11,011 bases of DNA from Actinomycetota bacterium (GTDB lineage: Bacteria > Actinomycetota > Actinomycetes > Nanopelagicales > Nanopelagicaceae), in the NCBI GenBank assembly GCA_009698975.1, contig WLPB01000017.1:1-11011 (forward strand), read 5' to 3'. A model generated the notes under the pieces. The model searched no databases. It was given only the letters and a program-made list of their open reading frames with translations, and was not told the origin of the DNA. Shown here in pieces: positions 2,676-4,874 of the stretch (the stretch's first letter is position 1; each line of letters begins with the position of its first letter). A program made the translations under genes and the position numbers.

Positions 2676-3143
2676 TTAATTTCTCGTTAAGTAACCCCAA
2701 GCGAGTGAGGCTGCAATCGCTATCCAAATTTGATAAGGAACCAGCAGCCACCCCATAACTACTGAGGCTCTAAACGTTAAATAAAGAAGAGGAATTGTCA
2801 GCAGTGCAGCTGTTACCAACGAGATGGTTGCTAACGTGAAGTTATGGGGAACGTAGAATTGGTAAGCCCACATTAAAGCTGCAAAAATACTTAACCCGAA
2901 AAAAGATAACCAAGCTATATTTTCTAATCGCGTTAAAGATTTAGAAACTTGATAAGAAGCGATGCCAAGGACCATAAAGTTATAAGGCCAGATAAGTCCA
3001 ATTACATAGCTAGGCGGCTGCCAGGGTGGTCGTTTGAGAGTTAAGTACCAACCAGGAGAGGAAGAGACCCAGATCCCTGAACCAAAGGCATAGACGAAGA
3101 CAAGGAGAATTCCAATTGCTGCAAAAAGGGTTCTGGAATCCAT
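2676..3143 (-). CDS. tspO: TspO/MBR family tryptophan-rich membrane protein
   Basis: 155 aa, normal for TspO. The family is a five-helix inner-membrane protein that binds porphyrins and related ligands and is linked to tetrapyrrole handling, stress and, in some bacteria, control of photosynthetic pigments. Visible family marks: WYLTLKRPPWQPPSYVIGLIW at 32-52 (the WY..L..PPW.PP loop) and PYQIWIAIAASLAWGYLTRN at 136-155, matching the usual PYxxWxxfAxxLNxxI ending with Trp in place of the usual Asn. Hydrophobic segments lie near residues 5-25, 47-66, 76-95, 104-123 and 130-150. The ATG at 3143 lacks a good Shine-Dalgarno sequence, so a leaderless transcript is possible. The metallopeptidase gene starts 70 bases further downstream on the same strand; co-transcription is possible but not shown. 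Confidence 0.85.
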   Translation of the reverse strand: MDSRTLFAAIGILLVFVYAFGSGIWVSSSPGWYLTLKRPPWQPPSYVIGLIWPYNFMVLGIASYQVSKSLTRLENIAWLSFFGLSIFAALMWAYQFYVPHNFTLATISLVTAALLTIPLLYLTFRASVVMGWLLVPYQIWIAIAASLAWGYLTRN

Positions 3144-3194
3144 CCCAAAACTCTAACGAGTAATGCCGAGAGGGTTACCAACGGCTTGCCCGCC

Positions 3195-3228
3195 ATTGCC
3201 TCACTATGTGAGATTGCAGTGAGGCAAT
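3195..3228. promoter_or_regulatory. Perfect 11-bp inverted repeat in the tspO-dnaB intergenic region
   Basis: ATTGCCTCACT (3195-3205) and AGTGAGGCAAT (3218-3228) are perfect reverse complements with a 12-base spacer. Inside, CTCAC (3200-3204) can instead pair with GTGAG (3208-3212) across a 3-base loop, so two mutually exclusive hairpins exist. There is no T tract. It lies 51 bases upstream of tspO on the minus strand and 33 bases before the DnaA-box array, between divergent genes. An operator for a dimeric regulator or a leader RNA switch would fit. Confidence 0.5.
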
Positions 3229-3261
3229 TGCATCCACAGTAATCCACGCTTATTGGGCGAG

Positions 3262-3346
3262 TTATCCACCGTTATCCACACTTCTCCACAACTTATCCCC
3301 ACCCTTACACACAGGAAATCGCTACTTACCCACACCTTTACCCACA
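3262..3346 (+). promoter_or_regulatory. Cluster of seven same-orientation DnaA-box-like sites upstream of dnaB
   Basis: Compared with the DnaA box TTATNCACA: TTATCCACA at 3272 is perfect. TTATCCACC (3262), TTCTCCACA (3282), TTATCCCCA (3293), TTACACACA (3305), TTACCCACA (3326) and TTACCCACA (3338) each differ at one position. All are on the plus strand, and starts are spaced 10, 10, 11, 12, 21 and 12 bases, about one helical turn (or two). Weaker two-mismatch copies at 3230 and 3240 continue the phase. The last site ends 43 bases before the dnaB start, where a promoter should lie. This would suit cooperative binding of DnaA as regulator or titration site. No adjacent AT-rich unwinding element was seen, so a replication origin is not claimed. 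Confidence 0.7.
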
Positions 3347-3364
3347 CCCACCTTCGCTTTTGTC

Positions 3365-3387
3365 GGTGGAAGGGGGCAAGCTCCACC
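3365..3387 (+). promoter_or_regulatory. Hairpin presenting the dnaB Shine-Dalgarno sequence in its loop
   Basis: GGTGGA (3365-3370) and TCCACC (3382-3387) are perfect reverse complements. The 11-base loop holds AGGGGG, the only good Shine-Dalgarno match before the GTG at 3390. The linear spacing from that purine tract to GTG is long (13 bases); forming the stem would change this geometry. It may tune dnaB translation. It also supports the GTG start over the TTG at 3360. Confidence 0.45.
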
Positions 3388-3389
3388 TC

Positions 3390-4874
3390 GTGAGTATCGC
3401 TGAATTCCCAACTAATACCCCTCGTAGCGTCGGGGCTGAATTCGAGCGCACTCCTCCCCAAGATCTGCAAGCAGAACAATCAGTTCTTGGCGGAATGCTC
3501 TTATCTAAAGATGCAATTGCAGATGTTGTCGAACATTTACGTGCACGCGACTTCTATCGCCCCGCACACGAACTTATCTTCGAAGCAGTTCTTGATCTCT
3601 ACGGTCGCGGCGAACCAGCCGATGCAATTACCGTCTCTGCAGAACTTACAAAGCGCGGAGAAATTGCTCGCGCAGGTGGTGCGCCATACCTTCACACTTT
3701 AATTTCCTCAGTACCAACAGCTGCAAATGCTGGTTACTACGCAAAGATTGTTCTTGATCATGCAATCATGCGCAGACTCGTTGAAGCAGGAACGAAAGTT
3801 GTACAACTTGGTTACGATCAAAATGGCGAAGTTGATGATGCAGTCGATGCAGCGCAAGCCGAAATCTACGCAGTAACCGAGCGACGTTCATCTGAAGATT
3901 ATGTTCAACTCAGTACCTTACTTCCACAGGCACTCGATGAGATTGAAGCAATCTCTAAAGGAACAGGCATCGAAGGAGTTAAGACTGGTTTCCGCGATCT
4001 CGATCTTTTAACTCACGGATTGCATCCAGGAAATATGATTATTCTCGCTGCACGTCCTGCTGTTGGTAAATCAACACTCGGACTTGATATAGCACGGCAT
4101 GCATCTATTCACGATAACCAAACTTCTGTCATCTTCTCTCTCGAAATGTCGAAGTCTGAAATCACAATGCGTATGTTGGCAGCTGAAGCCCGAGTAGGTC
4201 TTAACAATATTCGCTCAGGACAACTTAGCGATGACGAGTGGGCAAAGCTTGCACGTCGTATGGGCGAGATCTCTGACGCACCACTCTTTATCGATGATTC
4301 ACCAAATCTTTCAATGATGGAGATTCGCGCAAAGGCCCGTCGCCTTAAGCAGCGTCACGATCTCAAACTCATTGTGATCGACTACCTACAGTTGATGTCA
4401 TCAGGTAAGCGCGTTGAAAACCGCCAACAAGAAGTCTCTGATTTCTCTCGCCAAATTAAGTTGATGGCGAAAGAGCTCAATGTCCCTGTTATTGCTATCT
4501 CTCAGCTCAACCGCGGCCCAGAACAACGCTCTGATAAGAAGCCTATGCTCTCCGATCTTCGTGAATCAGGTTCAATCGAACAAGACGCTGACGTTGTTAT
4601 CTTGCTTCACCGTGAAGATATGTATGACTCACAGAACCGCGCAGGCGAGGCTGATTTAATTATTGCTAAGCACCGTAACGGTCCTACCCGCACGATTCCT
4701 GTATCAGCCCAGCTGCACTTTGCGCGCTTCTTTGATCTGGCACAGAATAATTCACCGCGTCAGTGGGGCACACCAGATTCACCTCCCGCAACAGCACCTG
4801 CTGGTTATGTTCCCGAATCACCATATGGCGATCAACAACCAGCCGAACCCGGCGATGGCGGTTGGAACGAATAA
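3390..4874 (+). CDS. dnaB: Replicative DNA helicase DnaB
   Basis: Hexameric 5'-3' helicase that unwinds the chromosome at the fork and recruits primase. 494 aa from the GTG at 3390. The frame reaches a TTG at 3360, but that has no ribosome binding site, while GTG gives MSIAEFP, like other actinobacterial DnaB starts, after a purine tract. Domains: helical N-terminal domain from about residue 20 (PPQDLQAEQSVLGGMLLSKDAI) to 125, linker, then the RecA-like core from about 190. Walker A is ARPAVGKST (221-229, Lys227), the catalytic Glu is 252 in SLEMS, Walker B is LIVIDYLQL (Asp331), sensor AISQLNRG includes Gln372, and RESGSIEQDAD (391-401) and KHRNG (427-431, arginine finger region) are present. 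The last about 40 residues are a Pro/Gly-rich tail. No intein, although dnaB often hosts them. DnaA-box-like sites lie just upstream. Confidence 0.97.
   Translation: MSIAEFPTNTPRSVGAEFERTPPQDLQAEQSVLGGMLLSKDAIADVVEHLRARDFYRPAHELIFEAVLDLYGRGEPADAITVSAELTKRGEIARAGGAPYLHTLISSVPTAANAGYYAKIVLDHAIMRRLVEAGTKVVQLGYDQNGEVDDAVDAAQAEIYAVTERRSSEDYVQLSTLLPQALDEIEAISKGTGIEGVKTGFRDLDLLTHGLHPGNMIILAARPAVGKSTLGLDIARHASIHDNQTSVIFSLEMSKSEITMRMLAAEARVGLNNIRSGQLSDDEWAKLARRMGEISDAPLFIDDSPNLSMMEIRAKARRLKQRHDLKLIVIDYLQLMSSGKRVENRQQEVSDFSRQIKLMAKELNVPVIAISQLNRGPEQRSDKKPMLSDLRESGSIEQDADVVILLHREDMYDSQNRAGEADLIIAKHRNGPTRTIPVSAQLHFARFFDLAQNNSPRQWGTPDSPPATAPAGYVPESPYGDQQPAEPGDGGWNE

Follow-up and report, generated by a model that had tools for sequence, protein, structure and literature searches.

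What does a closely packed, one-directional run of DnaA boxes do when it lies directly in front of dnaB, the gene for the replicative helicase? Such a run was seen in the window, the whole stretch of 11,011 nucleotides analysed here from a member of the Nanopelagicaceae, and an earlier note on this DNA proposed that it places helicase supply under DnaA control, or else serves as a DnaA titration site or a second, origin-like element. DnaA control of helicase supply is the leading reading, as the array is conserved together with dnaB and as both DnaA binding and an effect on dnaB expression are reported for mycobacteria (PMC7738170). With a probability that we put at roughly 0.7, the array is bound by DnaA and controls the dnaB promoter from upstream, so that helicase supply would follow DnaA activity.

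The array in the window

Gene order in the window is ssb, rpsR and rplI on the plus strand, followed by the genes for an unknown protein and a TspO-like protein on the minus strand and by dnaB on the plus strand. The boxes occupy the intergenic region in front of dnaB:

3144..3389, plus strand: intergenic dnaB promoter region, between the divergent TspO-like gene and dnaB (ORF list, family matches)
3230..3238, plus strand: weak DnaA box GCATCCACA, two mismatches, in phase
3240..3248, plus strand: weak DnaA box TAATCCACG, two mismatches, in phase
3262..3270, plus strand: DnaA box TTATCCACC, one mismatch
3272..3280, plus strand: DnaA box TTATCCACA, perfect
3282..3290, plus strand: DnaA box TTCTCCACA, one mismatch
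3293..3301, plus strand: DnaA box TTATCCCCA, one mismatch, a variant found in the arrays of many relatives
3305..3313, plus strand: DnaA box TTACACACA, one mismatch
3326..3334, plus strand: DnaA box TTACCCACA, one mismatch
3338..3346, plus strand: DnaA box TTACCCACA, one mismatch, starting 23 bp before the -26 element
3390..4874, plus strand: dnaB, replicative helicase, GTG start at 3390 (TIGR00665 540 bits; PF00772, PF03796)

The earlier note had placed seven boxes within 85 bases, all on the plus strand, and this was verified at 3262-3346, with starts at 3262, 3272, 3282, 3293, 3305, 3326 and 3338, one box perfect (3272) and six with one mismatch; the weaker copies that it had named at 3230 and 3240 were likewise found. 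No minus-strand DnaA box was detected in 3230-3346. Dinucleotide shuffles of this segment (n=5000) contained 0.28 boxes on average and 3 at most, none having seven, and the clustering of DnaA boxes directly upstream of dnaB exceeds chance. The remainder of the 11-kb window holds five boxes, both strands counted, which brings the window total to 12; window-wide shuffles had a mean of 8.79 boxes, and 35 of 200 reached at least 12. The total is therefore not unusual, and the signal lies in the clustering. Helical phasing was only suggestive from the window alone, the best coherence (R 0.93 at 10.9 bp) being reached by 273 of 20,000 random non-overlapping packings.

Other features of the window were recorded alongside the array. 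An inverted repeat, GCCATTGCCTCACT / AGTGAGGCAATTGC, with 14-nt arms that are 93% complementary and 12 nt apart, lies at 3192-3231 and overlaps the first weak DnaA box; it may serve as an operator for dnaB or for the divergent TspO-like gene. Within the minus-strand ORF at 1394-2605, the protein of which has no Pfam match, an 18-bp tandem repeat of 4.3 copies (2325-2401) encodes a proline/threonine-rich stretch. No RNA families were found in the window at gathering thresholds.

Conservation and helical geometry in relatives

The nearest DnaB relatives of the window were freshwater Planktophila/Nanopelagicaceae-type genomes (acI; L001-L035, 78-91% identity), and each of these 35 loci carried two to six plus-strand boxes upstream of dnaB. 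Eight MAG records among them (L003, L011, L015, L019, L024, L029, L030 and L035) have Bifidobacterium breve, Streptomyces griseus or Clavibacter titles; the DnaB of these mistitled-looking records is Nanopelagicales-like, with 79-86% identity to that of the window.

For the order set, which partly overlaps these loci, 61 genomes were searched, 59 matched and 55 were used together with the window, giving 56 loci, related and hence not independent, with 450 bp of upstream sequence examined; G282, G292 and G304, in which dnaB is split or lies at the end of a contig, were left out, as was G005. The earlier note had suggested that dnaB upstream regions of relatives be aligned, and the array was found to be kept, with at least two plus-strand boxes in 55 of the 56 loci and at least three, a count reached by 0.5% of shuffles, in 51. 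Fewer than three were present in the other 5. Within this set, 235 boxes run in the direction of dnaB and 13 against it. The class set was built from 118 searched genomes, 115 of which matched (8 of these in the order); 65 were used and 42 not taken, many of the latter having dnaB in two pieces. At least two plus-strand TTRTCCACA boxes were seen in 46 of these 65 loci and at least three, which no shuffle reached, in 25, and 19 had fewer than two. Direction was less strict here (140 plus, 38 minus), and many Nocardioidaceae had a pair of boxes on opposite strands, separated by 14-15 bp. A distant set was made up of the best-scoring loci of the phylum outside the class draw (21 used, DnaB identity 47-55%; L140 and L155 were dropped for short upstream sequence), and two plus-strand boxes were present in none of these 21, the totals being 1 plus and 11 minus.

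Two further words were noticed in these upstream regions. Of the 56 order regions, 21 have a TCTCA-N5-TGAGA palindrome, placed 188-296 bp before dnaB; none of the 65 class regions has it. Repeated GACACGCCG words were seen by eye upstream of the array in the Pseudonocardiales loci L050, L055, L067 and L071; in the class set this word occurs on the plus strand in 5 of 65 regions and on the minus strand in 6.

For 27 loci the nearest upstream ORF of at least 100 codons was recorded; 20 of these ORFs are plus-strand and 7 minus-strand, and they are of different kinds, rplI among them. As the upstream gene varies while the array stays before dnaB, the array belongs to dnaB. The genome-wide comparison of box density that the earlier note had asked for was made with IMCC25003 as a stand-in: in a 400-kb sample (20 stretches of 20 kb, 30% of the genome) the density was 0.605 boxes per kb, and at least three boxes within 110 bp occurred in only one of the 20 stretches, the one that holds dnaA, compared with five boxes within 75 bp at the dnaB array. 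The DnaA of IMCC25003 carries the DNA-binding domain PF08299, and the same DnaA box is used by the oriC of relatives. GC skew over the 20 sampled stretches was too noisy for origin placement.

The one-direction, helically phased geometry proposed for the window was strongly borne out across relatives. The order set yields 178 spacings of at most 80 bp from one box to the next, and 171 of them fell within 2 bp of multiples of 10.55 bp; with each spacing pattern counted once, 118 of 122 were in phase (period 10.60; null 0/1000), as were 59 of 64 class spacings at 10.9 bp, and in each phase test the observed coherence was reached by none of 1000 random sets. Related sequences share spacings by descent, so that the test on distinct values matters: 21 of 24 distinct spacings were in phase for the order and 17 of 20 for the class (0/1000 null), although the margin was smaller in this test, the coherence R being 0.76 against a null maximum of 0.66 for the order and 0.73 against 0.69 for the class. 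The commonest start spacings in the order were 12 bp (45 cases) and 11 bp (24), which leave gaps of 3 and 2 bp; E. coli DnaA is reported to prefer boxes 2 or 3 bp apart in vivo (PMC11317965).

That the array is a plain slippage tandem repeat with no DnaA function is scarcely credible. Tandem Repeats Finder does give a 10-bp repeat at 3262-3302 and a 12-bp repeat at 3326-3348, but the boxes are kept across the order though their spacings differ, with 38 unique patterns among 55 loci, and when box loss was looked for in close relatives the boxes were found to be kept. A tandem-repeat artefact was ruled out by this diversity of spacing with phase retained.

The core before the start codon and an element shared with oriC

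Beyond position 3346, where the earlier note had ended, a second conserved feature lies between the array and the start codon, at 3361-3382 in the window and 7 nt before the GTG:

3361..3368, plus strand: TGTCGGTG, -26 element of RecA-NDp/PafBC type (TGTCRG-N10-NAnnnT layout)
3377..3382, plus strand: CAAGCT, a weak -10 by prediction (of 53 unique order sequences, 52 have A at position 2 and 52 have T at position 6)

The TGTCRG-N10-NAnnnT layout, with the first T relaxed, was found downstream of the array in 53 of 56 order loci and was absent in 3, and each of twelve alternative spacings of the core motifs fitted only 0-5 loci. When the sequences were aligned on the first motif alone, position 5 of the -10 and most bases after the T varied freely. 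From the final T of the -10 to the start codon, 33 loci have a distance of 6 nt and 18 one of 7 nt; the 2 others have neither. As a conserved element the core is well supported.

Its reading as a PafBC promoter is only moderately supported. RecA-NDp/PafBC promoters are reported to have TGTCRG with 10 nt to the -10 (PMC8151990), and the -26 motif to be read by PafB (PMC11804915). Adjacent WYL-protein genes were present in five of five relatives, and in IMCC25003 the second of these, with an HTH_PafC domain (PF19187), is followed by tatC; the full motif precedes recA in 21 of 30 loci of the order. Upstream of dnaB, however, full TGTCRG-N10-TAnnnT was found in only 1 of 56 order loci, the window not among them, because the dnaB -10 (GAGGTT, CAAGAT and similar forms in the order) lacks the first T. 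The G-rich hexamer of many loci could be a ribosome-binding site instead of a -10, although the CAAGAT loci keep the A and the T without a ribosome-binding site. Furthermore, M. tuberculosis dnaB is described as raised, not lowered, in a recA-deleted, pafBC-silenced strain, a rise tied to an SOS-box-like motif (PMC8151990), and these data do not support PafBC damage induction of dnaB. The missing first T, the possible ribosome-binding site and the M. tuberculosis result together keep the PafBC reading at this moderate level. Use of the core as a promoter is suggested by its layout, and the dnaB mRNA is predicted to be near-leaderless, with transcription starting at or near the GTG.

A PafBC core was not supported for the class as a whole, the full motif being present in 5 of 65 loci and TGTCRGTR within 300 bp in 18 of 65. 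A housekeeping promoter, TTGCCT-N18-TAGCGT, after the array in Pseudonocardiales was read by eye only and is not claimed.

The last box of order arrays lies 23-165 bp from the core. Rigid phasing between array and core was weak when tested, with a per-array R of about 0.3 (nominal p 0.008-0.03, 43 unique arrays). The varied distance and weak phase argue against one rigid DnaA-RNAP contact.

In many relatives a third element accompanies the array. The word TGACCTGC, absent from the window, has plus-strand copies in 23 of 56 order loci and minus-strand copies in none (shuffles 0.4%); in 22 of these 23 loci it is followed by a DnaA box that starts at 40 or 41 bp, and in 15 a box starts 33-35 bp before it. 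In the class it is present in reverse orientation in 27 of 65 loci, with boxes at recurring offsets of -28, +36/37, +81 and +101 to +104. In ten order genomes CTGACCTGCNNTTT has 11 exact matches, confined to three sites: five precede dnaB, one lies in the dnaA-dnaN region of IMCC25003, and five follow one conserved gene located elsewhere. With one mismatch allowed, 83 matches were found against 33 for a reversed control pattern, so that the one-mismatch matches are largely background; two of them lie at the same place in dnaA-dnaN, 44 bp before the DnaA-trio, and weaker likenesses were seen by eye in the dnaA-dnaN regions of P. lacus and G005. That the dnaB array and oriC have an element in common suggests an additional partner of DnaA.

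The word CTGACCTGCG(C/G)TTTTACC was observed near base 1500 of L300, L304, L306, L307 and L315, five of the ten genomes, downstream of one conserved gene and far from dnaB. A DnaA-like box lies 17 bp beyond it in four of the five, and the gene that follows looks by eye like one for a small membrane or secreted protein.

Readings of the array and known systems

A second, origin-like element at dnaB, as the earlier note had also envisaged, is highly improbable. The DnaA boxes are dense, and in IMCC25003 the lowest 40-bp GC is 0.30 both beside the dnaB array and near the dnaA clusters, at all three sites alike, so that AT-richness does not discriminate there. However, both strands carry boxes in the dnaA-dnaN region of relatives, and five of seven relatives (IMCC25003, P. 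lacus, G005, G176 and G221) have a DnaA-trio run, made of CTA repeats, between dnaA and dnaN; the L083 stretch showed none, and L081 had one only at an unrelated place. No such run was seen in any of 121 dnaB upstream regions, a contrast that the idea did not survive. In the window itself the lowest 40-bp GC within 3012-3596 is 0.325, at 3499 inside dnaB, and the array has no AT-rich stretch beside it. The oriC of several relatives (L310, L314, L317, L084 and L085) passes from a DnaA box through a GC-rich stretch and a DnaA-trio-like TTACTACTACTA run to an AT-rich stretch, which resembles the basal unwinding layout.

The array is a DnaA-box cluster outside oriC, as are those of E. coli datA and B. 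subtilis. A titration or DnaA-ATP-hydrolysis site of the datA or DBC kind, with dnaB as a mere neighbour, would double soon after initiation and lower free active DnaA. In IMCC25003 five boxes lie at dnaB and five at dnaA-dnaN, with two perfect ones at the former and none at the latter; there and in P. lacus, dnaB and its array are some 21-22 kb from dnaA with oriC. The non-DnaA element TGACCTGC holds a nearly fixed place between boxes in the 23 order loci that have it; datA contains an IHF site, which this arrangement recalls. We nevertheless regard this explanation as rather improbable, as the array stays with dnaB while the upstream gene changes and is unidirectional in the order, and as a mycobacterial dnaA mutant with less binding is reported to under-express dnaB (PMC7738170). 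Titration near the origin is possible as a side effect. It is somewhat unlikely, too, that DnaA represses dnaB through a filament that blocks the promoter when DnaA-ATP is high. The E. coli dnaA gene is described as repressed by DnaA-ATP (PMC8203912), and the last box of the window starts only 23 bp before the -26 element; yet 36 of 43 unique order arrays have 44-165 bp between the start of the last counted box and the core, 23 bp being the shortest such distance in any, and the mycobacterial DnaA I282T result points to activation (PMC7738170).

Activation by DnaA is likelier than repression, a view favoured because I282T is reported to bind less and to under-express dnaB (PMC7738170) and because the core lies downstream of the counted boxes; the sign of regulation is borrowed from one mycobacterial mutant. 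Under DnaA control of helicase supply, DnaA, which we infer to bind the array in this organism and which is probably ATP-bound, would assemble cooperatively on the same-direction boxes along one helix face. This assembly would alter, and most likely raise, transcription from the downstream core TGTCRGTG-N8-NAnnnT, and the supply of replicative helicase would thereby follow DnaA activity. Bending, looping or local melting by the filament would tolerate the varied array-core distance.

Evenly spaced DnaA sites together with a damage-type-looking promoter before dnaB suggest a helicase supply tied to the start of replication. A more elaborate and tentative picture, to which we give rather less than even odds, is a two-input dnaB promoter in which the phased DnaA filament site would report initiation potential and the PafBC-type core with its weak -10, giving a near-leaderless mRNA, would report single-stranded DNA at damaged or stalled forks. 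As TGACCTGC is common to oriC and the dnaB array in many relatives, one nucleoprotein assembly may act at both. If true, the initiator, and possibly replication stress as well, would be coupled with helicase supply in a group that is dominant among freshwater bacteria and in a large part of its class. The arrays form a natural series, strict in phase yet varied in box number and distance, on which the action of DnaA as a transcription factor could be tested.

The earlier note knew of no described actinobacterial dnaB control of this type, which needs correction, since Hicks et al. 2020 (PMC7738170) mapped DnaA to the region before dnaB, using IDAP-seq for M. tuberculosis and ChIP-seq for M. 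smegmatis, with the I282T variant showing less binding there and a unique under-expression of dnaB. The mycobacterial site (Rv0057 region) is alike in gene, in binding outside oriC and in its link to dnaB expression; it differs in that the available part of that report describes neither a one-direction phased array nor a PafBC-like core, and the comparison is one of descriptions (PMC7738170). In Caulobacter crescentus, dnaB is assigned to the DnaA regulon, found by delaying dnaA transcription, and has predicted DnaA boxes upstream (cited in PMC8203912); this is another phylum, and the likeness lies in the gene and its predicted boxes. Within PubMed Central (titles, abstract starts and term counts; few subscription journals), no report of Nanopelagicales dnaB control or of DnaA and PafBC acting jointly at dnaB was found.

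The DnaA-box clusters of E. coli datA and B. subtilis share with the present array their position outside oriC and, in many relatives of the window, a second element among the boxes, whereas the Nanopelagicales array is tied to one gene and unidirectional. Mycobacterial RecA-NDp/PafBC promoters (PMC8151990, PMC11804915) share the TGTCRG motif with 10 nt to the -10, and IMCC25003 has a PafC-type gene, but the Nanopelagicales dnaB -10 is without the first T. DnaA control of dnaB is thus already known in mycobacteria and Caulobacter; new, as far as the sources consulted go, are the one-way helical array across an order and much of its class, the PafBC-like core that accompanies it and, in relatives, an element found at oriC as well.
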